A stretch of 35,416 nt of DNA from a virus. The stretch lies in the IMG/VR virus record IMGVR_UViG_3300042154_002794, positions 1 through 35,416 of that record, one strand, 5' to 3'. Shown one piece after another: positions 2,471 to 16,864 of the stretch (its first letter is position 1; every line of letters begins with the position of its first letter). The position numbers and the translations under genes are program-made. The notes below the pieces were generated by a model, which saw nothing but the letters and a program-made list of their open reading frames with translations, was not told the origin of the DNA and did not search any database.

Positions 2471-2959
2471 ATGGCAGATTTATTAATGAAAATGCCGGTT
2501 CCTTACGAACCGAAAAGAAAAAATAGATTTATCCTTAGATTTCCTTCATCTTTGGGTATTAACGAGTGGTACGTGACATCAACAGCACGTCCTAGCGCAA
2601 AAATAAATTCAGTGCCAATTCCCTTTTTAAATACGGAAACGTATGTTGCAGGTAGATTTACCTGGGAAGAGATTAAGGTTACCTTTAAAGACCCAATTGG
2701 TCCTTCTGCTTCACAAGCATTGATGGAATGGTTTCGTTTACACGCAGAATCGGTAACGGGTAGAATGGGTTACGCTGCTGGATATAAGAAGAACGTAGAA
2801 TTAGAAATGTTAGACCCAACTGGAGTTGTGGTTGAAAAATGGATCTTAGAAGGTTGTTTTTTAACTACTCTAAATTTTGGTGAATTGAACTATTCTCAAG
2901 ACGAATTAGCAACAATTGATGCTTCTTTGAGAATGGATAGATGTATTCAAGTTTATTAA
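2471..2959 (+). CDS. gp19: Tail tube protein (gp19-like)
   Basis: This is the major subunit of the inner tail tube, which stacks as hexameric rings inside the sheath and conducts DNA. The 162-aa length is almost the same as T4 gp19. The N-terminal PYEPKRKNRFILRFPS segment leads into the first strand of the tube beta-barrel. The central segment FTWEEIKVTFKDPIGPSASQ and the C-terminal half with LDPTGVVVEKWILEGCF, LNFGELNYSQDE and a final aspartate-initiated strand match the gp19 family layout. The start is ATG after an A-rich leader with no Shine-Dalgarno sequence. It lies directly after the sheath gene and before an intrinsic terminator, so it probably has its own abundant transcript, as expected for a high-copy structural protein. 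Confidence is high. Confidence 0.93.
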   Translation: MADLLMKMPVPYEPKRKNRFILRFPSSLGINEWYVTSTARPSAKINSVPIPFLNTETYVAGRFTWEEIKVTFKDPIGPSASQALMEWFRLHAESVTGRMGYAAGYKKNVELEMLDPTGVVVEKWILEGCFLTTLNFGELNYSQDELATIDASLRMDRCIQVY

Positions 2960-3119: not shown

Positions 3120-3860
3120 ATGGAAAACTTTGACCCAACCATAGCATATGATGTTGTCCAACTACCTTCACAGGGGATACATTATACAAATGGTAGAAAA
3201 TCATTAAAAATCGCATATTTAACTGCTGCTGATGAGAATATATTGACATCACCAAATCTAATTCAATCTGAATCAGTTGTTGATGAATTACTAAAAAGAA
3301 AAATTTTAGATAAAGATTTTGATGTATCTGAATTAATCGAAGAAGACAAACAAGCTATTTTAATTTTTTTAAGAAATACCGCTTTTGGTTCTGAATATAA
3401 GTTGGAATTAGTTGACCCAAAAACAAATAAAAATTTTGAAGCAACAATAGATCTGTCTGTATTAAAAACTAAAGAATTCAAATTGATTGCTGACTCAAAT
3501 AATGAATATGAGTTCTTTTTACCAATAAGTAAGAAAAAAATCACTTTTAAATATCTTACAACTAAACAAGATGATGAGTTAACCTTAATTAAAAATTCAT
3601 CTAAAGAAGCTGTTTTACCAATAACAACAAAAAGATTGGAAATGATGATTAAATCTGTCGATGGTAATAGAGACCAGATGGCAATTTATCAATTTATTCA
3701 AAATCTTCCAATTAAAGATTCGCAAGATTTTAAAAGATACGCATCAGAAAATAAACCCGGATTAAATTTAATCATTGAAGTAAACGCCCCGTCAGGAGAA
3801 AAAGTCCCAGTTTTGGTTGACTTTGGGGTGGAGTTTTTTCGTCCCTTCTACGGAATATAA
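3120..3860 (+). CDS. gp26: gp26-like baseplate hub / tail assembly protein
   Basis: This 246-aa protein resembles the T4 gp26 baseplate family. The N-terminus has the typical pattern of a short strand, LPSQG followed by Y and NGRK, then a hydrophobic strand and TAADENIL, a helix with LLKRKI, an acidic helix and a FLRNTAFG segment like the LR..sxG core of the family. The C-terminus ends in two beta strands and VDFGVEFFRP, similar to the FFWP-type ending of phage gp26 proteins. In T4 the equivalent is a hub assembly component encoded next to gene 51. Here it lies between tail tube and tape measure, the normal place of tail assembly chaperones. The zero-frame stop at 3858-3860 is probably bypassed in a fraction of ribosomes (see the overlapping extension at 3847-3981). 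Family assignment is from motif memory and moderately certain. Confidence 0.65.
   Translation: MENFDPTIAYDVVQLPSQGIHYTNGRKSLKIAYLTAADENILTSPNLIQSESVVDELLKRKILDKDFDVSELIEEDKQAILIFLRNTAFGSEYKLELVDPKTNKNFEATIDLSVLKTKEFKLIADSNNEYEFFLPISKKKITFKYLTTKQDDELTLIKNSSKEAVLPITTKRLEMMIKSVDGNRDQMAIYQFIQNLPIKDSQDFKRYASENKPGLNLIIEVNAPSGEKVPVLVDFGVEFFRPFYGI
3843..3846 (+). promoter_or_regulatory. Candidate +1 frameshift site CCC-T
   Basis: The zero-frame proline codon CCC (3843-3845) is followed by T, so a proline tRNA could re-pair on CCT after slipping forward one base. Overlapping proline codons of this kind are known +1 shift sites, for example in a Listeria phage. An alternative is a -2 slip on the TTT TTT run at 3834-3839, the direction used in phage Mu. 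Both place the ribosome in the frame that runs to 3981. The exact site is inferred, not shown. Confidence 0.45.
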
Positions 3861-3981
3861 AAAATATCAATTAGATTCAATAATTTTTCTAGTTAGCCGA
3901 GGTTTTGGGTATCGAGACATTTTAATGATGCCTGTGTATGAAAGGAATAATATAATTAATATAATGATTGAAAAAAGTTAG
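3847..3981 (+). CDS. Frameshifted C-terminal extension of the gp26-like protein (gp51-like)
   Basis: In the +1 frame relative to the gp26-like gene, an open stretch runs from 3784 to a TAG at 3979-3981. From 3847 it encodes 44 residues beginning STEYKKYQLDSIIF and ending with a helical tail that contains YRDILMMPVYERN. A strand-free amphipathic segment followed by a MPVYERN-type motif is what I associate with gp51-like and GT-type tail assembly proteins. The only in-frame ATGs are at 3925 and 3928, which would yield peptides of 18 and 17 residues, and there is no ribosome binding site, so independent translation is unlikely. A shift near 3843 would fuse it after FFRP to give about 286 residues. 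T4 genes 26 and 51 are adjacent separate genes, so this arrangement is unusual. Coding character is clear by eye; the mechanism is inferred. Confidence 0.65.
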   Translation, partial: STEYKKYQLDSIIFLVSRGFGYRDILMMPVYERNNIINIMIEKS

Positions 3982-4012: not shown

Positions 4013-5950
4013 ATGACAGTAGAACAATATAAACAATATTTAATAACCGTAAAAAAGATGTCACCTTCTGATGCTGATGATGCAGCTAAGGAATTTGCTA
4101 AAGGTATTAATGAAGCGGCGTCAAAAGCGGGTAGAAGTTCTAGCTCAACCACAAAACTAAGTGGTTCTGTTTTAGACAATATTGCTAAAGCAGCTGCTTC
4201 TGGATTTTATGATAGGTTAGAAAGCACTCAAGCTAGAATTAGCGTTAGTACCATAGAAAAAATGGTTGGTAAATTAGCCGACATCCCAACCTTAAATCCA
4301 ATCGTATTAATTACAAATATTTTAAATGCTGGTGCGGATGTTTTAAGTACTGTTTTAACAGACTTATCTAAGTTAAATGATAATTTATTAGAATCAACAA
4401 AAGGATCAGCTGGTTACGTAGGTGAGGTTGGTGACGAGATGATTAAGGGTTTAAATGAAGCTATCATTGCAACAACAAAATTAGGTATTAGTGTTGATGA
4501 TTTTCTTTCGGCAACAAAGTCTTTAATGACCGAATCTGGAAGAATGGCATTTTATAGTGAAGAGACAATATACGCTGGAATGGAAGCTGCTATGGCTTAC
4601 ACAAAATCTTCACAAACATTATTAGAAAACTCAGAATCTTTTAGAAATGTAGGTCTTGGATTAAATGACGCCGCAAAGTCAATTTCTGATATAGGTAAAA
4701 ATTCCGTTAACATGGGATTGAGTGCAAAAGCGACCTCAGAAACATTAATAAAAAATTTAGGGATGCTTAACCAATACGGTTTTCAAAACGGTATAAAAGG
4801 TTTAGGTAAAATGGTTCAAGAGGCACAAGCACTCAAAATCAATATTGACGATACATTTAAGGTGGCTGAAAAACTATATGATCCAGAAGGGGCAATTAGT
4901 TTAGCCGCAAATTTACAAGTTATTGGTGGAGCATTTGGTGATTTAGGTGATCCAATTAAGTTAATGTACGACGCAACAAATAATGTTGAATCATTACAAA
5001 CAAGTATTATTGGTGCTGCAAGAAGTTTAGCGACGTATAATGCAGAACAAGGTCGATTTGAAGTTACTGGGGTTAATTTAAGACGAGCAAAAGCTATGTC
5101 TGATGCTTTAGGTATTTCAATGGGTGAGTTGACAAATATGGCAGTTAAAGGTGCTGCGAAATTTGAAGCAATGAGTCAGTTAGACATTTTCCCGGATATC
5201 ACCGAAGAACAAAAAGAGTTTGTTTCTAATTTAGCAACAATGAAAGATGGTAGAGTTGGGTTTGATTTACCTGATGATATGGCTAAAAAATTAGGTATAA
5301 CAAATCTTCAAGAGGGGTTTGTTGCAATGGATGATTTAAATTCAACACAACTTGTTCAATTAAAAAATTTACAAATAGCTAATGAAAAATTATCGACTAA
5401 AGATATTGCTAGAGAACAATTAAACTATACAACGCAAATGGCTAGTACTGTTAGTGCTATATATTTGAGGCTGATGGAAGATGCTAGAAGAAGTGATTTA
5501 GGTGGAAAAGCCGCAGAAGCGTTAAAAACTTCTAACAAATTTATGGACGATAATTTTGATCCAACAAAAATGTCAACAAAAGATATGCTTAATAAAGTAT
5601 ATAATGAATCTAGTGATTTCTTGAAAGGTCAAGCTGCGGAACAATATGAGGCAGCTAAAAAAATGTTACCAGATGTCACTAATTTCATGGAGGGTGGTTA
5701 TGAGTCTATTAAAAAAGCGGCAAAAGATATTAACATACCAGAATCATTTGAAGATTTAAAGAAAATGGCTGAGCCAGCAATAGAAAAAGGTAAAGAGATT
5801 TTACGTGAGATGGGAGTTACAGTTAAAGTCGATCTAAATAGTAGTAGTCAACTATTGGCTAACATGGTTGTTGATGAAATTATAAAAAACCCACAACTAA
5901 AGGCTAATTTTATGGATAGCATTACTAAAAACATCAAAGAATACGCATAA
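4013..5950 (+). CDS. Tape measure-like tail protein (gp29 counterpart)
   Basis: This 645-aa protein is predicted almost entirely alpha-helical, with Ala/Lys/Leu-rich segments and a hydrophobic stretch around residues 93-125 (NPIVLITNILNAGADVLSTVL). These properties and the position straight after the tail chaperone-type gene identify it as the tape measure, which sets tail length and is ejected with the DNA. T4 gp29 is 591 aa, so the tail is probably of roughly T4 length if the usual proportionality of about 1.5 angstrom per residue holds. The middle region (residues about 130-420) repeats helical blocks with many Gly/Ala turns, and the C-terminus is again lysine-rich. No enzymatic domain such as a peptidase or lysozyme was recognised. 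The ATG at 4013 follows an A/T-rich gap carrying the CTATTTATTAG motif and no SD. Confidence is good on role and lower on direct homology to gp29. Confidence 0.75.
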   Translation: MTVEQYKQYLITVKKMSPSDADDAAKEFAKGINEAASKAGRSSSSTTKLSGSVLDNIAKAAASGFYDRLESTQARISVSTIEKMVGKLADIPTLNPIVLITNILNAGADVLSTVLTDLSKLNDNLLESTKGSAGYVGEVGDEMIKGLNEAIIATTKLGISVDDFLSATKSLMTESGRMAFYSEETIYAGMEAAMAYTKSSQTLLENSESFRNVGLGLNDAAKSISDIGKNSVNMGLSAKATSETLIKNLGMLNQYGFQNGIKGLGKMVQEAQALKINIDDTFKVAEKLYDPEGAISLAANLQVIGGAFGDLGDPIKLMYDATNNVESLQTSIIGAARSLATYNAEQGRFEVTGVNLRRAKAMSDALGISMGELTNMAVKGAAKFEAMSQLDIFPDITEEQKEFVSNLATMKDGRVGFDLPDDMAKKLGITNLQEGFVAMDDLNSTQLVQLKNLQIANEKLSTKDIAREQLNYTTQMASTVSAIYLRLMEDARRSDLGGKAAEALKTSNKFMDDNFDPTKMSTKDMLNKVYNESSDFLKGQAAEQYEAAKKMLPDVTNFMEGGYESIKKAAKDINIPESFEDLKKMAEPAIEKGKEILREMGVTVKVDLNSSSQLLANMVVDEIIKNPQLKANFMDSITKNIKEYA

Positions 5951-5989: not shown

Positions 5990-8900
5990 ATGTCAAATTT
6001 AGATTTTAATAATACAAAAAGTTTTAGAGATGCTTTGTTATCAAAGACATTACAAGCACCTAATGGTCCACAAACTTTTAGTTCAACATCGTATTCAGTA
6101 CAAAATACAAACAGTTTTTCAAATACAGATAGTGGTGACGTTGTTTTAAACGATGCTTATGATAGAAGTAATCTATTAAAAAATTCTTATACAATTAATA
6201 GATTTGGTCCAGAAAGTGGTGATAAGTTTGTTATTATTGAAGACATTAACACAATACCATCATTAGGGAACTTAGCTCTATACCCATATTTTCAAACACA
6301 AGATGTTCTTGGTAGAAGTTTAATTGGTGCATTAAATTCAGAAAATTATGAATTTGAATCAAAATTAGCGCAATTTTCAAACACATTTTTAAGTGATGAC
6401 CCACAGGGTCCAGTTCAAGCAAGAATTAGACAAAATTTAGAAACAGCTACATTAGGTAGATTAAGAATATTAGACGCTATAAATGGTAACACCTCTACAG
6501 CAATTAATATTATTAGAGGTAGAGAGAGTTTAATTGAAAAAAATTATAAAATTACTGTTGCAAGTTCAATACCTGGTAAGATTATTGACTTCGTACAAAC
6601 TGTTGCTGGGGTAGAATTTCCATTTTCAGAAATTCCTGGTGATTATTTATCAAACCCAGCTAATCCTGTTGTTAATAGACCAGAGCCAAGAACTCAATTT
6701 GGTGCGATTCTACAGGATGTAACAGGTGTCCTTGGTTCACTAGTCGGAATTAAAAGAAGACCTAAATTATCTAGTAAACCGTCCGATATAATGTATGAAT
6801 ACATGGGTAGTGGACAAAAACAAAACTTACATGATAATTTATATTTTTCAAAATACAAACCAGATTACACAACAACAGCAAGATCTCAACAATCAAGTAA
6901 GCTATTTAATTTTCCTGGAGCAATAGCACAAGGTATAAAAAATGTACTTGGTGTGGAGGCCCCAAAAGGTAATGCATATATTGGTGATGATAGATCTGAA
7001 AACGCAATTTATGCCACTTCTGATTTTAACGGGAATATTGTTAAAAGTCCATATTATCTATCATTGCTGTTTGATCCAATACAAGCAAGATATTTTCAAA
7101 ACGAAAGAAATATATCTGAAGGCGGACAAATTGGTGGTAAACTAACTTGGTATAGTAAGAACTCTAAAAATAAATTAGGTGCAAACAATAAAGAGTATAA
7201 CTCTGAGCGTTCTAAATTAGAAGAAAGCCTATCAACTAGAACCGCGTTTAGGGAAGATTCTATATTAGCAAAGACACAAGAATTATTAAACTCAATGCCA
7301 CTTGACGGTGCTCAATCTAGATCACACGTTGGTAATGCTATTGATCAAACAACTAGAATTTTCAGAGAGGGTGAAGTATTTTTATCTAAAGGTTCAGCAA
7401 TAAAATATATTAATAAAACAACAGGTTCTGAAGATGGTACCGAGTACTGTCGAGTTTGGACTAAGGATAGGGGATATATGAACTATTCTGATACAATGAA
7501 AAGAACCGGTTTAATTAGAAAAGTTGAAGATAGTATAATTTCAACACCATGGAATTTGAATATTGCCCCAATATCTAATGGACAAAGAAGTTTTAAAGAT
7601 TCAACAAATATTGAACAAACAGGTGTAGACCCAATAACAGGGAAAGCAAAAAAATATATGTTTTCAATTGAAAACTTAGCTTGGAAAACATCTAACAAAC
7701 CTGGTTACACAGTAGAAGATTTACCTATTTGTGAAAGAGGCTCAAATGGTGGTAGAGTTATGTGGTTTCCACCATATGATTTAAAAGTTAATGAGGTTAG
7801 TCAAGCTAACTGGGATAGTAATAAATTCATTGGTAGACCAGAACCGATTTACACATATCAAAACACCGAAAGAACCGGGACGGTATCGTTTAAGGTTATC
7901 GTTGATCACCCAAGTATTTTAAATTTATTAATAAAAGATATTAGTGACGAAGAAGCAGAAAATTATTTAAATGCATTTTTTGCTGGTTGTCAAGATATTG
8001 ATTTTTATACATTAGTTAGAAAATATACAACATTAGAAAGAGGTGATTTAGAATTAATTAGAACATATCTAGAATATTATAGAGACGGTAAAACATCAGA
8101 CACTACGGATATTCTATCATTTAAATCTATTGCTGGAGAACAAACGTTTGAAGCTGGAGGTGAAATTGGTGGAGCTCAGGGTGATGCCGGGGTTTCTGTT
8201 GCACCATTTAAAGACACAATGTATTTCCCAAATAATATTCCATATCCTAATAATGGTATTTACGCTGACAAAGGATATCTAGATGTGTATGAAGAATATA
8301 TTAAAGAAAAACCAGTTTTTTTAGCAAAACTAAACACTGAGTTAACTAAAATATTAACAGTTAATACTGCAGATAATATTAATGATAGAATTACAATTTT
8401 TGGTTCCGCAACACCAACAACAATTGGAACGACCGGATACTCAAACGCCCAATTAATAGAACAAAAACAAAATGAAATCGTTGCTGGATTTGATAAACTA
8501 GAAGCTAGCGTTTCAAAATTAACAAATGATTTAACAGCATTAAAAGAATTAATAAGCAAGAATCAAATAGATACTATTGATATTGGTATAACATCGACAA
8601 CATCTTTTGTTGCTGATGATATCTATAATATAAAATTATCATATAGAAGATCTGATAGTCTTTTTAATTATATTATTAAAACATTATCTAGTAATAATAC
8701 CTTTCCTTCCGACCTTGAAAAAAAATATTGGAAAAAAACAATAAGTGATTTAGATGCTAATCCAGCTCAGTCAGACGAGGCGATAACAATAGATCTTAAA
8801 GATTTAGGGTATGGACAAGATTTCACAGGAAAAATAAATTTAAAATTTGTAAATAAAGGGGAAAACGCTAAGGTTAATGATCAATACGATTGTACTAATC

Positions 8901-10765
8901 AAGAAATAAGAAATAAAGGTGGGTTAAAAAAATATGCACCAATAACATTTTATTGTAGATCCGCTGAATTAGATATTACAACAATAACTAAACCATCCCC
9001 AGACGAACCATCAACAAAACTTCCAGACGTAACAACAATTGGTGCAGAAAAGACTGACATTATTGTTACTAGAACTGAAAAAAATAGGAAACCACCATTA
9101 GATGAGGTTAAAAGAATTATTATGAAAACATTGTCAGAATGTTTTTATTTTAAAAAGTTAGAAGAAACTGACCCAGTTGTTTTTGGTAGTTTAAAAGATA
9201 AATTAAAATATTTTCACCCAGCGTTTCACTCGATGACACCAGAAGGCTTGAACAGCCGTTTAACTTTCTTACAACAATGTGTTAGACCGGGCGATACTAT
9301 ACCTGTAAAAGGTTTAGGTAGGGAAACTGATTATAGTTCAGATGCTAGAAATACAACATTTGGTCCACCACCTATTTGTGTATTAAGAGTTGGTGATTTT
9401 TACCACTCAAAAATTATAATAACAAACGTTAATATAAGTTTTGAAAATACAACTTGGGATATAAATCCTGAGGGTATTGGTATGCAGCCAATGATAGCTG
9501 ATGTGTCATTACAGATTACATTTATTGGTGGTCAAGGATTGAAGGAGCCTGTATCAAAACTACAGAATGCATTAAGTTCAAACTTCTATGCAAATACTGA
9601 AGTTTATGATTATAGATCTACCGCAACAACTAACGATCAAATGGCTCAATATAGAAAAGAATTTTTAGAATCATTTTTTATTAGTGAAACGCCTAAGACA
9701 CCAACATCTCCAGCGTCACCAGATTCCCCAATTAATGGGAAATATATTGGTACGCCAGTAGAAACTAAGTTTAGTTATAATGAAAATATAAAAGGAATTA
9801 TTGACGGGGCTAATGGTTATTTTAAAATATTTGGGGAAACATACAACGAATTACAAAAAGGTTTCGGTGTAGAAATGTTACCACTCTTTATTTCACCACT
9901 ATATAGAGTAAACAAGCAATTAGATGTTCAAAATACTTCAAGTAGTAACGTACAAATTAATTTACTTGGTAAGTATCAAATGGGTTATGATTTTATTAAT
10001 TTTATTACAGAATTTGAAAAAAGTTTTCTAGCGACAACTGAATCATCAGATCACAATATTATCTTTGATTTTGATATTCAAACCGGATCAGCTAAATACG
10101 AAAGATCAAGAAAAATTATTGATCCAATTATTAAAGAGTTGGTTACAGAATATTTGACGTTAATTAGAGATGATAAAAAAATTGTTGCTGTTGAAGAGGC
10201 TAGAAATAAATTTATTAATGAAGTTGATAAATTAAACTTTATAATGATGACTTCTGGTATTGACGCTAAAATAGATAAAGAGGTTGTTACTGCGAAATCA
10301 TTAACAAATTTTGATAATGCAAAAATGTTCGATCAATATGAAAAAGTTATAGATTTGTTTAATAAAAAACATATCATGTTTTCTGAAGACTTAGACGGTA
10401 CATTTGATTTTAAAACAATTTCAATTACTGACACCCAATATAAAAAAGTATTAGCATTTATTATTAAAGATAAAATCGATAAGATAAAAACTGCGTATAC
10501 TAGTTCTCCAGATAAAGATTTGTTTGATAACAACACAATTAAAAAAATCGAAAGAAGATTGGAAAAATTTTTATCAAACAATTTAACAGAACCAAAAGAC
10601 AAGAAATTCAAATTTAAAAATGTTGAAGTTAAAAAAGAACTTGAACCATATGAATATACTACTGGAACATTAGCACCAGATAAAGAAGAGATTTTAAGAA
10701 AAATTCATAACGATAAAGATTTTTCAACAAATACTAAATTAAATTTTACTAAAGCAATTAAATAA
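5990..10765 (+). CDS. Giant baseplate / tube-initiator-like protein with OmpA-like segment
   Basis: This 1591-aa structural protein lies between tape measure and gp53-like genes, where T4 has hub and tube-cap genes. Residues about 570-650 contain MWFPPYDLKVNE, then GRPEPIYTYQNTERTGTVSF, a strand-rich pattern that I associate with tail-tube initiator or LysM-associated baseplate proteins. Residues about 735-900 resemble an OmpA-type peptidoglycan-binding domain: an FKDTMYFPNNIPYPN opening, a long helix, then YNIKLSYRRSDSLFNYI, comparable to the N..LS..RA motif. Residues about 1126-1183 (VLRVGDFYHSKIII, then PMIADVSLQITFIGG) resemble the C-terminal strands of gp48/gp54 tube caps. The first 500 residues and the lysine-rich C-terminus are not recognised. 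Its stop codon overlaps the next ATG (TAATG). It may combine functions that T4 splits over several proteins. Domain calls are by eye and uncertain; a tail role is likely. Confidence 0.6.
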   Translation: MSNLDFNNTKSFRDALLSKTLQAPNGPQTFSSTSYSVQNTNSFSNTDSGDVVLNDAYDRSNLLKNSYTINRFGPESGDKFVIIEDINTIPSLGNLALYPYFQTQDVLGRSLIGALNSENYEFESKLAQFSNTFLSDDPQGPVQARIRQNLETATLGRLRILDAINGNTSTAINIIRGRESLIEKNYKITVASSIPGKIIDFVQTVAGVEFPFSEIPGDYLSNPANPVVNRPEPRTQFGAILQDVTGVLGSLVGIKRRPKLSSKPSDIMYEYMGSGQKQNLHDNLYFSKYKPDYTTTARSQQSSKLFNFPGAIAQGIKNVLGVEAPKGNAYIGDDRSENAIYATSDFNGNIVKSPYYLSLLFDPIQARYFQNERNISEGGQIGGKLTWYSKNSKNKLGANNKEYNSERSKLEESLSTRTAFREDSILAKTQELLNSMPLDGAQSRSHVGNAIDQTTRIFREGEVFLSKGSAIKYINKTTGSEDGTEYCRVWTKDRGYMNYSDTMKRTGLIRKVEDSIISTPWNLNIAPISNGQRSFKDSTNIEQTGVDPITGKAKKYMFSIENLAWKTSNKPGYTVEDLPICERGSNGGRVMWFPPYDLKVNEVSQANWDSNKFIGRPEPIYTYQNTERTGTVSFKVIVDHPSILNLLIKDISDEEAENYLNAFFAGCQDIDFYTLVRKYTTLERGDLELIRTYLEYYRDGKTSDTTDILSFKSIAGEQTFEAGGEIGGAQGDAGVSVAPFKDTMYFPNNIPYPNNGIYADKGYLDVYEEYIKEKPVFLAKLNTELTKILTVNTADNINDRITIFGSATPTTIGTTGYSNAQLIEQKQNEIVAGFDKLEASVSKLTNDLTALKELISKNQIDTIDIGITSTTSFVADDIYNIKLSYRRSDSLFNYIIKTLSSNNTFPSDLEKKYWKKTISDLDANPAQSDEAITIDLKDLGYGQDFTGKINLKFVNKGENAKVNDQYDCTNQEIRNKGGLKKYAPITFYCRSAELDITTITKPSPDEPSTKLPDVTTIGAEKTDIIVTRTEKNRKPPLDEVKRIIMKTLSECFYFKKLEETDPVVFGSLKDKLKYFHPAFHSMTPEGLNSRLTFLQQCVRPGDTIPVKGLGRETDYSSDARNTTFGPPPICVLRVGDFYHSKIIITNVNISFENTTWDINPEGIGMQPMIADVSLQITFIGGQGLKEPVSKLQNALSSNFYANTEVYDYRSTATTNDQMAQYRKEFLESFFISETPKTPTSPASPDSPINGKYIGTPVETKFSYNENIKGIIDGANGYFKIFGETYNELQKGFGVEMLPLFISPLYRVNKQLDVQNTSSSNVQINLLGKYQMGYDFINFITEFEKSFLATTESSDHNIIFDFDIQTGSAKYERSRKIIDPIIKELVTEYLTLIRDDKKIVAVEEARNKFINEVDKLNFIMMTSGIDAKIDKEVVTAKSLTNFDNAKMFDQYEKVIDLFNKKHIMFSEDLDGTFDFKTISITDTQYKKVLAFIIKDKIDKIKTAYTSSPDKDLFDNNTIKKIERRLEKFLSNNLTEPKDKKFKFKNVEVKKELEPYEYTTGTLAPDKEEILRKIHNDKDFSTNTKLNFTKAIK

Positions 10766-11085
10766 TGAATCAGTATTTTAATAGATATGAATATTTTACC
10801 GAAAATGGTGAACACAAGATTGTTCCTGGGATAGAAATACCTATTAGGTCAACTGATAAATTTACTAAATATAAAAAAGGTAAAGATAGGTTAGATAAAA
10901 TGTCTCAAGAGTATTATAGTACACCACTTTTTGGTTGGTTAATTATGTTAGCTAACCCAACACTAGGTTCTTTAGAGTTTGAAATACCCGATAATTCTAT
11001 TATTAGAATACCCTTTCCTTTAATTAACACTTTACAAGATTATAAAAAGGGTGTAGAATTGTATAAGCTATATTATGGCGAATGA
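10765..11085 (+). CDS. gp53: gp53-like baseplate wedge protein with LysM-like core
   Basis: This 106-aa protein shows the LysM-like pattern of gp53-type baseplate wedge proteins: GKDRLDKMSQEYYSTPLFGWLIMLANP (residues about 40-66), where a helix is followed by a Tyr-Tyr and a Trp-rich second helix, then FEIPDNSIIRIPFPL as the closing strand. Gp53 clamps neighbouring wedges together in the T4 baseplate, and related small LysM proteins are present in other contractile injection systems. T4 gp53 is longer (about 196 aa), so this is a reduced form. Its ATG overlaps the stop of the 1591-aa gene, and its own end overlaps the next gene by 11 bases, which suggests translational coupling in one baseplate operon. 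Confidence is moderate to good. Confidence 0.65.
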   Translation: MNQYFNRYEYFTENGEHKIVPGIEIPIRSTDKFTKYKKGKDRLDKMSQEYYSTPLFGWLIMLANPTLGSLEFEIPDNSIIRIPFPLINTLQDYKKGVELYKLYYGE

Positions 11086-14000
11086 TAAAATAAATCAAAC
11101 CGAAAACATATTAGTTAGAGTTGATCAACAAAACATTATACATATCGACCCAAACAGTGTTGTTGATAGTAATGGACAAATTCAAGCAAGACTTGTCGAT
11201 CACGAAAACTTAGTTATGTATCTTAACTTGGAAGCAGATTTGGTTCCAAGAACAACTTTCTATGCCGATAACCAAGAAAATCCATTATTAAGTATTGCTC
11301 AAGGTACTTTTAACTTATTAAGAAATCAGGGAGATAAAAACGAATTTGAAAATAACTTCGACACCAATTGGACTGAAACTTTTGTTTCAAACAATAATGT
11401 AGGTAGAAATAACACCACAGGTGGTAACACTATTTATGACCCAACAGCACAAACGTTTGGTATAGAAAGTGTTAACATCGTTGTTAAAGGTGCAAATAAT
11501 ATCCCACAAGTTTCAATTAATTTTGTTGACGTTAGAGGTAAGACATTATTTGAATCACCAGAGAACTCCCCTTACAAAGCATTTTTTCACCAACCTTGGC
11601 CAATATTTTATTTAACCGTTAAAGGTTATTATGGTAAAGCGATTCGTTACAGAATACAACTAGTTGACTTTAAATCAAAATTTAATGGAAGTAATGGTAA
11701 TTTTGAAATAACAACAAAATTCGTTGGTTCAACATATGCTTTTCTAAGTGATATTCTTTTTCAAAATGCTGTTAACGCGCCATTTATGTATATGGTGGAA
11801 AAACAGAATGAACCCTATCGTGTAAATGAAAAAACTGGATTCATTGAGAAAAAAATCTCAAAGACAACAAAGGGGTATTCAATATTAAGTTCAATTTATA
11901 GTGATTATAAAGCTAAAGGTTACATCCCCAATGATTTCCCGGTTAAGACATTAAGAGATTTATTAATGACCGCAAAGGGGTTAGATAAGATAATTGAAAC
12001 ACAATTATTTTCTGAAACCGTTGATCCCGGTGTTTTAACAGATGTTGCAGAATATGATACATTATTAGATAGTTTTGAAAGAAGGGTTCAAGCTTGGGCG
12101 AATAAGAATTTAAATTCACAAGAAGCTGAAATAAAAACAGAAGAACTTCCTGGTCCAGACGGTACTAATAAAATTTACAGATATTATAGAATTAGAAAAG
12201 CGGTCAATGATCAAACTAAAGTATCAAATGGCCCAGTTAATTCGGATGTTATTACAAGTAAAGATGATAAGTTATCATTACAATCAATTATTAATGATTT
12301 CATACAAAAAGCTGAAAAGAATACTGCTTTTGGTAATGATATTAAAACAAATAAAGGGAAAAACCCTTTAAAAACAACACCAATATCTATTGATAGAGTT
12401 AGAAATATAAATGACTTTTTCACATTTGATGGATCAGTTTATGGCGTGGCTATTGAAAAATTAGTGGACGCGATTAAAGCAATCCAAACAACATTTATAA
12501 CTAGTAGGACCAATGTTGAACTAAAGATTGAAGATGAAATGAATAAAATCATCTCAAACCCAGACCCTAATTTAGGTGGTTTTGGATTTAAACCAACGAT
12601 TAGAAATATTTTTGCTGTTATATTAGCAAACGCTGATGCGTACATTAGATTAATGAAAGATGTACACTCTAAAGCGATACAAAAAGCAAATGATAGAAAA
12701 GTAGGAATACCAATTCTAGAAAAATCTAAAGAATCGTTTTATCCTTGGCCTGAAGTGTTAAAAAAACAGAATAGTGAAACCAACGTTTCATTTTATCCTG
12801 CAGATCCAGCTATTGTTAAAGAAACTAAAGCAGATGATTTTAGTCTTTGGCCTGAAGTTGAATTTATTGAAACATATAATAGTGTGGCAACAAAAAGGGT
12901 TGACCCATTATCTGGTAAAGAAATTTCATCATCTGAGTTATCTTTTGTTTTTGAAAATGACCCAGACAAAAGAAATGTTAAAAACATTAGTTCTTTGTTT
13001 AAAATTAATAATGTTATTCCTTATACCAACAAATCTATACTCAATATAATATATGAAATGTATGAAAGAGCGTTCTATACAACATCATATAATAATTTTC
13101 AGTATGGTCAAGGATTAGATGAAATAGTCACTCACGAACTTGAAACAATACAAAGCTCACTTGAAAATGACATTGATATTAAGGATGTTCTGAGTAAGGA
13201 AATTAAAACAACAGAAATATTAACAAACAAATTAATTACCAGAGAAAGATATCCATTTTTCCAAAATAGGTTATCAACTACTGAATATATAAAAGAACTT
13301 GTTGATAATGATTTTGAGTTAATAAATCTTAATACATCTGATATTAATAGCACTACCGATTCTGGATATGTAAAACTACAAGAAGAATCGATAAACAAAT
13401 ATACAATTGACACATATAGGTTAAACGAATTTCCATTCAATTCAACATTATATGAAACATATATTGGTAGAAAAATAAATAATGCTGACTTTGAATATAA
13501 GAATATTTTAACAGTCGGTAATAACAATAGTTTTATTAGTTCACCAATTAAACCAGAGGCTTGGGTTAATAGCGTGTTCACAAAAAACATATTTTCAAAT
13601 AAAATAAAATTAAACACAATATCCCAAACAGGTGATGTCTTTGATTTATATGAAAATTTATTAAATACACCATATTTCCACAAACAACTTTACAACGATT
13701 TCCTTAAGGGTGGGGTAACAAATAGGTATGTTGGCTCAGCGTACTTATTACTTAATTCATTACCATTTAAAGAGATGGATGATTTAATTGATTTCAACGG
13801 AAGTCCAATATTGATGTCTTCTTTATTTAAGGAAGTTGGCGCGTCACACTTTATCCCATATCATTTAATATTAAAATGGGGTGCTCAATACCATAGGTAT
13901 AAAACATACCTTAAAGATGGTATTGACATAATAAGCGGTGCAACAGCGCCAATCAACGGAAGCACATTTTTTGACAATGGAACAAACACAACATTTAATT

Positions 14001-16864
14001 TAAGTGGTATAACAGCTTCAATGAGTGGTGCTACATACAATTCAAATGAATATATTGGTTTGTCACCATACTACTTTAGTATTTTTCATCAAATTGTAAA
14101 TGGGTATAGTTTTTACAATCCATCCGGATTTACTGGTACACCTACTAGTTCAGCAATTGCCGCGGCATTATTTGCAAATACAATTACTAGTGGAATAACA
14201 AAATACTCAGTTAATTCATCAATAGGTAGCCCTGGATATTCGATCACCTCTTTTGTTGATAATAGTAAATTTGAATCTTTGGATAAGAGGTATACAATAT
14301 TACCTTCTGCACAGATATATGATAGTCCAATAGATTTAGAAACAAACTTTAATGCTTTTATACAGGATTCATATAAATTAATTCTTGATAATCCAGGTAT
14401 GTATGTAGATGTGACACCGTATAGTGTTTTTAATTTACCTGAATATAACGAAGGGTTTAAAAATCTTAGTGGCACATATTCATTAATTGGGGAACAACGT
14501 AAGTTCTTTGATTTAATATCTGTGTTCAGTCCAAAATTATTAGATACCATGGAAGAGATGTTTATAGAATTTTCTTCCTTAGATCTTACTTTAGATTCGG
14601 CGAACAATCTTGAAAATTATAAAACATTTCAGGGGTTACTTAGAGCGATATGTTCATTACCTATGGATGGTATTGATTTTTCAAAAGATGAAAACAAAAT
14701 CAACATTGTTAAGAACCAAACAAAAAATTTAGAAAAAATAACACAATCTATTTTAGAAAATGTTAATCTAAAAAAACTAACTATTGGTAACCCAAAACAA
14801 ATTGACAACTACACTTTATCTGGATTTGCTGGTTATAGTGAAAACTATTCTGTTGGTCAATTTGATTCAACACAGGTAACGCAACAAAATTTAAAATTAA
14901 TTGAATTGTATGTTGGTTACAATATTACTGGAACAACATATTCAAATATAAGTAATAATTTATATTTAAATTTTTTCCAAGTAAACAATATAGGTCTTAA
15001 TGAACAAAATATCTATGATCACAGGGAATTGGCTAGAATATATGCTGGATGGGTAAAATCAAACAGGGATATATCAACTGGTTTTACACCAAGTAATTTA
15101 ACTTTTGTTTCATACATAAAAGACGAAATAGTTAAAAAACAAGATAAGAGATTATTAGACTATCTTGACAATATTATTCCAAAACTAAACACCTTAGCCC
15201 CAAATAAACAAACAGATAAAGTATCAATTTATCATGGATTTAATGAGGCGAAAACAACCAAATTAGATTTATACCAATTTTTCAAATCTTTTAATGATAA
15301 GTGGATTGCAGGTAATGCGATAGGCCAAAGGTATTTAATGGATGAATTTTTATTCTTAGATAGAGCCAATAAGGATATTGGTGACGATGCTTATATTTCA
15401 TTAGAAAGATTGATTTCATTGGCAGACGAAAAAAATATTAAGGTAGATTTATATAGCGCAATTTCTATATTAATCCAAGGTACTAATTTTGATATGAGAC
15501 CATTACCGGCTTATATAAATTTTTACGGTACAAACGCAGCAAACAAAAAGAAAGTAACACCGTCAAAAGGTTTAGCAAAAACTTTATTTGGAACACACTT
15601 AGATGTTGATTATCAGGATTCATCACCAAAAATTATTTTACAATATGTAAATGGGGTATCAAAGTATCTTGACATGAGTAGAGTTAGTAAAGAATATAGA
15701 TTTAAAAATGATGCTTTTGATATTAAAGACTCAACAAACAATCCATTGCTTATTGAACCAAAAATATTTTTGGATGCGGATCTTTCTAAATCAAATAGAG
15801 TTGTTTCTTTTGAAGTTAATTTTGGGGATTTTGGTCAAGGTATCTTTAAAGAAATATCTTTAGATCAAAGCACATATAAAAATACTAATGAAAGTGCTTT
15901 AGCTCAAGAAAGATTGGCTAGATCAGAGGGTGGTGGTGGTAGTCACCAGGTTGATATTGGTTTATTTGATATATACAAAACAGCATCTTATCAATGTACA
16001 ATTACAATGATGGGTAATGTGATGATGCAACCAACTATGTATTTTTATCTAGCAAATATCCCAATGTTTGAAGGAACATATTTGATTTTTGACGTTTCAC
16101 ACCAAATACGTGAAAATACAATACAAACAACACTAACAGGTGTTAGATTGTCAAATAGTATGTTACCTAATCTAGAAAACTCATTTATGTCTAGTTATAG
16201 ACCATTATTTAGTAGAGTACTATCTTCGGCAATAAAAAAGAAACAATATGCAGCTAATCAGATACAAACTGAAAAAACTATTACATTAAAGAATAATGAA
16301 AATGCTAATATCAATCCAGGAAATTCTGTTTCAGGTGAAGATTTGGATAAAATGATTATAAAGGAAAATGGGTTCCATAAAGATTTAATACCATTCAACG
16401 GAGTTAAGTACAACGGTAAAGAAGAAAAATTTGTACAATACATTGAAAAATCCACAAATGATAAGTGGTTACGTGCTGCTGTCATTAGAATGGGTGGGCC
16501 TCAATACCCTATTAGTGATAATGAAAATATGTTGTTAATATCTGGATTAAAATCCAATCCAACTATAATAAAAACTTGGGGGGATATTAGTGGTAGTCTT
16601 AATGAATATTATTCGGTTAGAGTAAATTTAAATCAATCTAATAAAGAAGATATTTTTAAATATAAAACAGAGTTTTTAAACCCTAAAACAAGCACAACAT
16701 ACACACTTCAACCAGTATTAAACGTGAACACAAGCACGTATAACGGACCAGTACATGTTGGTCCGCCAGAAAGTATCGGGAATTACGGTATTGGTATGAA
16801 CTCAATTCTAATGAAAAAATTAAAATTAAATGAGGGGGATATAGTTTATTTTAGACTTATTTAG
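11075..16864 (+). CDS. Giant baseplate hub-like protein, 1929 aa
   Basis: This very large protein is placed directly after the gp53-like gene and overlaps it. Residues about 128-235 form a beta-rich segment (FGIESVNIVVKG, then WPIFYLTVKGYYGKAIRYRIQLVDF and FEITTKFVGSTYAFLSDI) of a kind found in large phage baseplate proteins. Residues about 1625-1705 (CTITMMGNVMMQPTMYFYL, IPMFEGTYLIFDVSHQI, TTLTGVRL) resemble the tail-hub fold shared by gp27, gpD and VgrG, in which a P.F.G.Y.V..V.H pattern is common. A GGGGS stretch lies just before it at residues 1619-1623. The remaining 1400 residues are Asn/Tyr-rich and unrecognised. No lysozyme motif was found. T4 gp27 is under 400 aa, so if this is the hub it is greatly expanded. 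A structural baseplate role is likely; the hub assignment is tentative. Confidence 0.55.
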   Translation: MANDKINQTENILVRVDQQNIIHIDPNSVVDSNGQIQARLVDHENLVMYLNLEADLVPRTTFYADNQENPLLSIAQGTFNLLRNQGDKNEFENNFDTNWTETFVSNNNVGRNNTTGGNTIYDPTAQTFGIESVNIVVKGANNIPQVSINFVDVRGKTLFESPENSPYKAFFHQPWPIFYLTVKGYYGKAIRYRIQLVDFKSKFNGSNGNFEITTKFVGSTYAFLSDILFQNAVNAPFMYMVEKQNEPYRVNEKTGFIEKKISKTTKGYSILSSIYSDYKAKGYIPNDFPVKTLRDLLMTAKGLDKIIETQLFSETVDPGVLTDVAEYDTLLDSFERRVQAWANKNLNSQEAEIKTEELPGPDGTNKIYRYYRIRKAVNDQTKVSNGPVNSDVITSKDDKLSLQSIINDFIQKAEKNTAFGNDIKTNKGKNPLKTTPISIDRVRNINDFFTFDGSVYGVAIEKLVDAIKAIQTTFITSRTNVELKIEDEMNKIISNPDPNLGGFGFKPTIRNIFAVILANADAYIRLMKDVHSKAIQKANDRKVGIPILEKSKESFYPWPEVLKKQNSETNVSFYPADPAIVKETKADDFSLWPEVEFIETYNSVATKRVDPLSGKEISSSELSFVFENDPDKRNVKNISSLFKINNVIPYTNKSILNIIYEMYERAFYTTSYNNFQYGQGLDEIVTHELETIQSSLENDIDIKDVLSKEIKTTEILTNKLITRERYPFFQNRLSTTEYIKELVDNDFELINLNTSDINSTTDSGYVKLQEESINKYTIDTYRLNEFPFNSTLYETYIGRKINNADFEYKNILTVGNNNSFISSPIKPEAWVNSVFTKNIFSNKIKLNTISQTGDVFDLYENLLNTPYFHKQLYNDFLKGGVTNRYVGSAYLLLNSLPFKEMDDLIDFNGSPILMSSLFKEVGASHFIPYHLILKWGAQYHRYKTYLKDGIDIISGATAPINGSTFFDNGTNTTFNLSGITASMSGATYNSNEYIGLSPYYFSIFHQIVNGYSFYNPSGFTGTPTSSAIAAALFANTITSGITKYSVNSSIGSPGYSITSFVDNSKFESLDKRYTILPSAQIYDSPIDLETNFNAFIQDSYKLILDNPGMYVDVTPYSVFNLPEYNEGFKNLSGTYSLIGEQRKFFDLISVFSPKLLDTMEEMFIEFSSLDLTLDSANNLENYKTFQGLLRAICSLPMDGIDFSKDENKINIVKNQTKNLEKITQSILENVNLKKLTIGNPKQIDNYTLSGFAGYSENYSVGQFDSTQVTQQNLKLIELYVGYNITGTTYSNISNNLYLNFFQVNNIGLNEQNIYDHRELARIYAGWVKSNRDISTGFTPSNLTFVSYIKDEIVKKQDKRLLDYLDNIIPKLNTLAPNKQTDKVSIYHGFNEAKTTKLDLYQFFKSFNDKWIAGNAIGQRYLMDEFLFLDRANKDIGDDAYISLERLISLADEKNIKVDLYSAISILIQGTNFDMRPLPAYINFYGTNAANKKKVTPSKGLAKTLFGTHLDVDYQDSSPKIILQYVNGVSKYLDMSRVSKEYRFKNDAFDIKDSTNNPLLIEPKIFLDADLSKSNRVVSFEVNFGDFGQGIFKEISLDQSTYKNTNESALAQERLARSEGGGGSHQVDIGLFDIYKTASYQCTITMMGNVMMQPTMYFYLANIPMFEGTYLIFDVSHQIRENTIQTTLTGVRLSNSMLPNLENSFMSSYRPLFSRVLSSAIKKKQYAANQIQTEKTITLKNNENANINPGNSVSGEDLDKMIIKENGFHKDLIPFNGVKYNGKEEKFVQYIEKSTNDKWLRAAVIRMGGPQYPISDNENMLLISGLKSNPTIIKTWGDISGSLNEYYSVRVNLNQSNKEDIFKYKTEFLNPKTSTTYTLQPVLNVNTSTYNGPVHVGPPESIGNYGIGMNSILMKKLKLNEGDIVYFRLI

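Follow-up and report, generated by a model that had tools for sequence, protein, structure and literature searches.

Gene order and the gp26-like protein

The window (the whole stretch of DNA that was analysed) is a 35.4-kb viral metagenome record. The features considered here are as follows.

3-2207: tail sheath, upstream of the chaperone gene
2471..2959, + strand: tail tube protein, gp19-like (phrog_4542 tail tube, 2.2e-27; PF06841, 1.2e-5, slightly under the curated cut-off)
3120..3860, + strand: gp26-like protein of 246 aa in the zero frame, the short tail assembly chaperone or TAC-N (PF12322, phrog_150)
3825..3828, + strand: GGGG element, 8 nt upstream of codon 240
3834..3842, + strand: predicted shift site TTT-TTT-CGT, Phe codons 239-240 followed by a rare Arg codon
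3841..3981, + strand: +1-frame tail VPSTEYKK...IEKS, 46 aa plus stop (conserved coding signal, profile homology)
4013..5950, + strand: presumed tape measure protein, 645 aa (position only)

The 246-aa frame is directly preceded by the tail tube gene, as identified by profile match. The 645-aa ORF on its other side occupies the slot annotated as tape measure in Flavobacterium phage immuto, Bacillus phage SP-15, and Listeria phage LIS04; profile searches and tblastn gave no informative match for its own sequence, and its identity as the tape measure protein is presumed from position. With this presumption, the gene order agrees with the placement of the chaperone gene directly upstream of the tape measure gene in the preliminary description. 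No tRNA genes were found in the window. Two proteins of 1591 and 1929 aa in the baseplate region (5990-10765 and 11075-16864, respectively) have no Pfam match.

The 246-aa protein matches PF12322 (T4_baseplate; the T4 gp26/gp51 family) over residues 26-231 (2.3e-8), with a score of 34.4 bits against the curated cut-off of 24.5. The AlphaFold2 model covering this 246-aa form (pLDDT 88.7) has fold matches in BFVD to the baseplate hub of SP-15 (E 2e-15) and to gp26 of Aeromonas phage 25 (E 5e-5). Among solved structures, no fold match was significant (E 5.4 for the HK97 chaperone gp13, 2ob9, and about 5 for 3klu, YqbN), and a sequence search against solved structures returned nothing relevant.

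Coding signal in the second frame

The positions given in the preliminary description proved correct: the zero frame extends from 3120 to 3860, the +1 frame is open from 3784 to 3981, the T6 run lies at 3834-3839, CCC-T at 3843-3846, and the ATG codons at 3925 and 3928. The open +1 frame reads ...SFFVPSTEYKKYQLDSIIFLVSRGFGYRDILMMPVYERNNIINIMIEKS and then a stop codon. Translation of the fusion joins residues 1-240 to the 46-aa tail and yields a 286-aa long chaperone (TAC-NC).

Nearly every locus among the close relatives (n=80) has the same junction and a conserved +1 tail. The +1 frame remains open for at least 75 nt beyond the zero-frame stop in 319 of the 323 loci with a complete gene, so that the conservation of the second frame, for which an alignment of relatives had been suggested as a check, is borne out. 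Counted in this set are five named phages with a +1 tail, namely Flavobacterium immuto, Microcystis Mel-JY01, Bacillus SP-15, Listeria LIS04, and the uncultured LR756508. The identity of their homologs is only about 30%, and the tail is unannotated in all five; in immuto, SP-15, and LIS04 it stops shortly before the annotated tape measure gene. One apparent exception (L108) conforms on inspection.

Among the 72 non-redundant close relatives, a single member has a +1-frame stop in the 102 nt after the junction, compared with 71 and 70 members that have one in the remaining frames. When pairwise tail differences are sorted by +1-frame codon position, they follow the order 3 > 1 > 2 (44646, 32760, and 21794, respectively). 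Synonymous diversity in the same 72 relatives is lowest in the 3' part of the gene, and the junction's GGG, TTT-TTT, and TTC show no or almost no variation. Although homopolymer runs are prone to error, the same split recurring across hundreds of independent contigs as well as isolate genomes, together with the site-specific synonymous constraint at the junction, leaves practically no probability that a continuous gene was divided by a one-base assembly error. A sequencing error of one base at the junction, named earlier as a finding that would overturn the frameshift, is ruled out by the relatives.

The tail might instead be a separate small protein initiated inside the gene, comparable to the annotated 43-aa 'gp51' of cyanophage Syn1. 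Annotators have drawn such a small gene in Syn1, HTVC008M, OLIVR6, and RHph_I1_9, and the window has TTG codons upstream of T6 in the +1 frame, so that the original statement that the tail has no useful start holds for ATG in the window itself and does not extend to TTG. However, the sole in-frame ATGs of the window lie 17-18 codons before the tail stop, the open conserved frame extends back to the shift site, and T4 gp51 carries the tail fused in frame. In nine non-redundant relatives, a +1-frame stop lies 5 or 14 nt ahead of codon 240, and none of the codons ATG, GTG, and TTG follows it before tail residue 24; separate initiation of the tail is therefore excluded in these nine, and we consider it very unlikely overall.

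Some loci deviate from the common arrangement. At L011:3001-3759 the junction runs into the apparent middle of the tape measure gene, reflecting a deletion or a chimeric contig. In two MAG contigs of Prevotellaceae and Bacteroidaceae (L431 and L437) the gp26-like gene passes straight into the next ORF, and neither of the other two frames has a recognizable tail. These two Bacteroidales loci seem to be really devoid of the tail, and a loss of the long form in them is possible.

Probable shift site and direction of the shift

The constant element of the junction is a pair of Phe-Phe codons, which is found as TTT-TTT-CGY-CCY in the close family and as TTT-YTT-TGG-CCT or TTC-TTT-TGG-CCT in the others, and is generalized across families as YTT-Y. 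The TTT-TTT-CGT site itself is conserved in nearly all close-family loci, mostly as T6. The +1-frame stops place the shift after GAR, and the zero-frame stop places it before TAA. Re-pairing of the P-site codon in the +1 direction is possible at the first or second position of the Phe-Phe pair in 108 of the 109 distinct junctions, one of these 108 requiring a C-to-U first-position mismatch. A mismatch of the same type is present at the +1 site of prfB. Either codon 1 or codon 2 of the pair may be the P-site codon.

Two sites had been proposed, CCC-T and T6, and the second was retained in the form of the Phe-Phe site TTT-TTT-CGY. As to the first, CCC-T is replaced by CCT-T in 53 of the 72 non-redundant relatives and has no equivalent in some other relatives, and a slip on the proline codon (codon 4) allows +1 re-pairing in just 4 of the 109 distinct junctions; CCC-T was rejected as a slip site.

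The Arg residue at codon 3 is encoded by CGN in all 72 non-redundant close relatives. In the window, the main Arg codon is AGA (28.5 per 1000 codons), compared with 4.4 for all CGN codons and 3.0 for CGT plus CGC, and slow decoding of the A-site CGN codon is a putative component of the shift. The close family carries a UUU_C-type site, TTT-CGY, with the rare CGN as the next codon. Upstream of it, the Gly codon GGG (3825-3827), a minor codon for Gly, is fixed in 72/72 non-redundant relatives with a synonymous diversity of 0, and the GGGG element may be a further stimulating signal. The search for a downstream RNA structure was negative: all Rfam matches were under the gathering scores, and local RNA folds were inconsistent (z between +0.9 and -2.8 relative to simple base shuffles).

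Slippage by -2 on T6 would produce the same fusion with one extra Phe, and the preliminary description had left +1 and -2 side by side. A -2 shift is used by phage Mu (PMC5009743), and T6 or T7 runs permit perfect -2 re-pairing in 87 of the 109 distinct junctions, including that of the window. The +1 shift is favored because the other 22 distinct junctions cannot re-pair at -2; the +1 tail is kept behind TTT-CTT-TGG, TTC-TTT-TGG, and TTT-CTA junctions, where such re-pairing is impossible, and the rare A-site codon suits +1. Across all families, re-pairing at +1 is the one of the two that fits. We consequently regard a -2 shift as unlikely. RNA polymerase slippage on the T run, resulting in mRNAs one base shorter or two longer, could draw on the T6-T7 runs of most members, but a T6 run is short for polymerase slippage, and many immuto-type loci carry TTTCTTTGG, with runs of at most 3, and still keep the frame; this explanation is highly improbable.

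As judged from sequence comparison, a +1 frameshift at the Phe-Phe site very probably lets this one gene specify the two tail assembly chaperones of a contractile tail of the T4 type. The proposal of a programmed frameshift that yields 246-aa and 286-aa products, joining a gp26-like body to a gp51-like tail, is strongly supported by the comparison. The comparison showed that both frames, the site, and the tail are conserved, and it showed their homology; from these results we infer that the slip takes place in cells, along with its efficiency and precise register and the role of the products. Most ribosomes would terminate at 3858-3860 and release the 246-aa short form, and a minority would stall while UUU (codon 240) occupies the P site and the rare Arg codon CGU the A site. 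Re-pairing of the P-site TTT on TTC (3838-3840) would then shift the frame by +1 into the tail (3841-3981). The predicted tryptic peptide across the junction is VPVLVDFGVEFFVPSTEYK for a +1 shift and VPVLVDFGVEFFFVPSTEYK for a -2 shift. If the pair works as lambda G/GT does, the role of the short form would be to coat the tape measure protein and that of the long-form tail to bring in tail tube subunits.

Comparison with T4 gp26/gp51 and with known frameshift systems

Frameshifts in chaperone genes upstream of the tape measure gene are known for lambda G/GT (-1), Mu (-2), and the haloarchaeal HSTV-2 (probably +1), with T4 named as the exception to chaperone frameshifting (PMC5009743). The window gene resembles these systems in that one gene upstream of the presumed tape measure would give rise to two chaperones, whereas the proteins are different or very distant and the shift sites are other ones. 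The chaperone gene of Pakpunavirus Adele, a recently recognized missed frameshift, occupies the same genomic slot, but shifts by -1 at GTTTTT (PMC12846349). A likeness of the site itself is provided by influenza A PA-X, for which a +1 shift at UCC_UUU_CGU was demonstrated by peptide sequencing and a class of UUU_C sites was predicted (PMC3498833). At both sites the P-site codon is UUU and a rare CGN codon comes next, although the PA-X shift involves a eukaryotic ribosome, an unrelated gene, and a different E-site codon. The UUU_C class predicted from PA-X would find a natural phage counterpart in the window-type site.

Both T4 gp26 and T4 gp51 match PF12322 (8.8e-64 and 3.9e-52, respectively), and gp51 has about 45 C-terminal residues in addition to those of gp26, with this tail in frame. 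Genes 26 and 51 are adjacent, as had been stated, but they are full-length paralogs on opposite strands and are divergently transcribed; T4 thus has a short gene and an in-frame long gene rather than a split G/GT pair. The proteins of T4 and the window belong to the same family, with short and long forms, the long one bearing a C-terminal tail, whereas T4 uses two genes on opposite strands and the window one gene with a probable shift.

A tail in the -1 frame was found in cyanophages, Aeromonas Ah1, Pelagibacter HTVC008M, Vibrio phi-Grn1, Stenotrophomonas YB07, and Agrobacterium OLIVR6, and no full-length gp51 gene adjoins gp26 in these T4-like phages. Among the cyanophage-type loci, 78/79 have T_TTT_TTC and one has T_TTT_TTT. 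The gp26 genes of the cyanophage, Pelagibacter, and KVP40 types share with the window gene a homologous body and tail and the same Phe-Phe pair ahead of the stop, but shift by -1 at T_TTT_TTC, in contrast to +1 at TTT-CGY or YTT-TGG. In profile comparisons, the window-type tails match the other +1 tails (98%); these in turn match the -1 tails (96%), from which T4 gp51 is reached at its C-terminus (97%). Compared directly, the window-type tail and the gp51 C-terminus give a weak match (hhalign 11%, E 0.003), so that the homology of the tail to T4 gp51 runs via a chain through the other families.

As far as its title and its citations in PMC12846349 and PMC10885494 go, an earlier study (Vladimirov, Gautam and Davidson, 2022, Virology 566:9-15) identified the tail assembly chaperones in T4-like phages, with gp26 and gp51 as the short and long forms in T4, and proposed a mechanism other than frameshifting. 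Passages in these citing papers also describe some T4-like phages as carrying a short gene together with a fused long one (PMC10885494) and poly-T as a known -1 signal in T4-like chaperone genes (PMC12846349). On the basis of these papers, we count as known both the -1 sites in T4-like phages and the link between the 26/51 pair and G/GT; the link drawn in the preliminary description holds, but was published in 2022.

Taken together, it is likely that a single chaperone family joins the same C-terminal tail in three ways, with the direction of the shift flipped on a conserved Phe-Phe pair: by +1 (the window phage and its Flavobacterium, Microcystis, and Bacillus relatives), by -1 (cyanophages, the Pelagibacter phage, and Schizotequatrovirus), and as an in-frame paralog (T4). 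The +1 form, its YTT-Y site followed by a rare codon, and the switch of direction were not found in the literature searched, from which subscription papers were mostly absent, and both the +1 variety and a switch of direction inside a single family seem to be new. With its apparent +1 shift at UUU-Y before a rare codon, this large T4-related group offers a natural series for comparing shift direction, shift site, and gene duplication among homologous proteins. If the reading is true, the flip on the conserved Phe-Phe pair can be traced in evolution and compared in reporters, and corrections would be due in the records of many phages, where the long chaperone is not annotated and its tail is labelled a hypothetical protein.

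Proteins of 43-60 aa are annotated separately as 'gp51' or 'baseplate hub assembly catalyst' in Prochlorococcus phage Syn1 (L429:3217-3399) and at three other loci (L422, L424, and L428); since in all four the open -1 frame extends back as far as the shift site, they look like missed -1 frameshifts. Gene 51 of Acinetobacter phage ZZ1 (L335:1501-2255) lies in two frames, unlike in its close relatives, which is probably a sequencing error. The gp26 homologs of the Ackermannviridae type in Salmonella phage Vi01 (L426:2438-3241) and Vibrio phage D532 (L425:2483-3223) have a -1 tail with the weaker sites ATT-TTC and CTT-TTC, and the next annotated large gene in both is gp5-like and not a tape measure gene.
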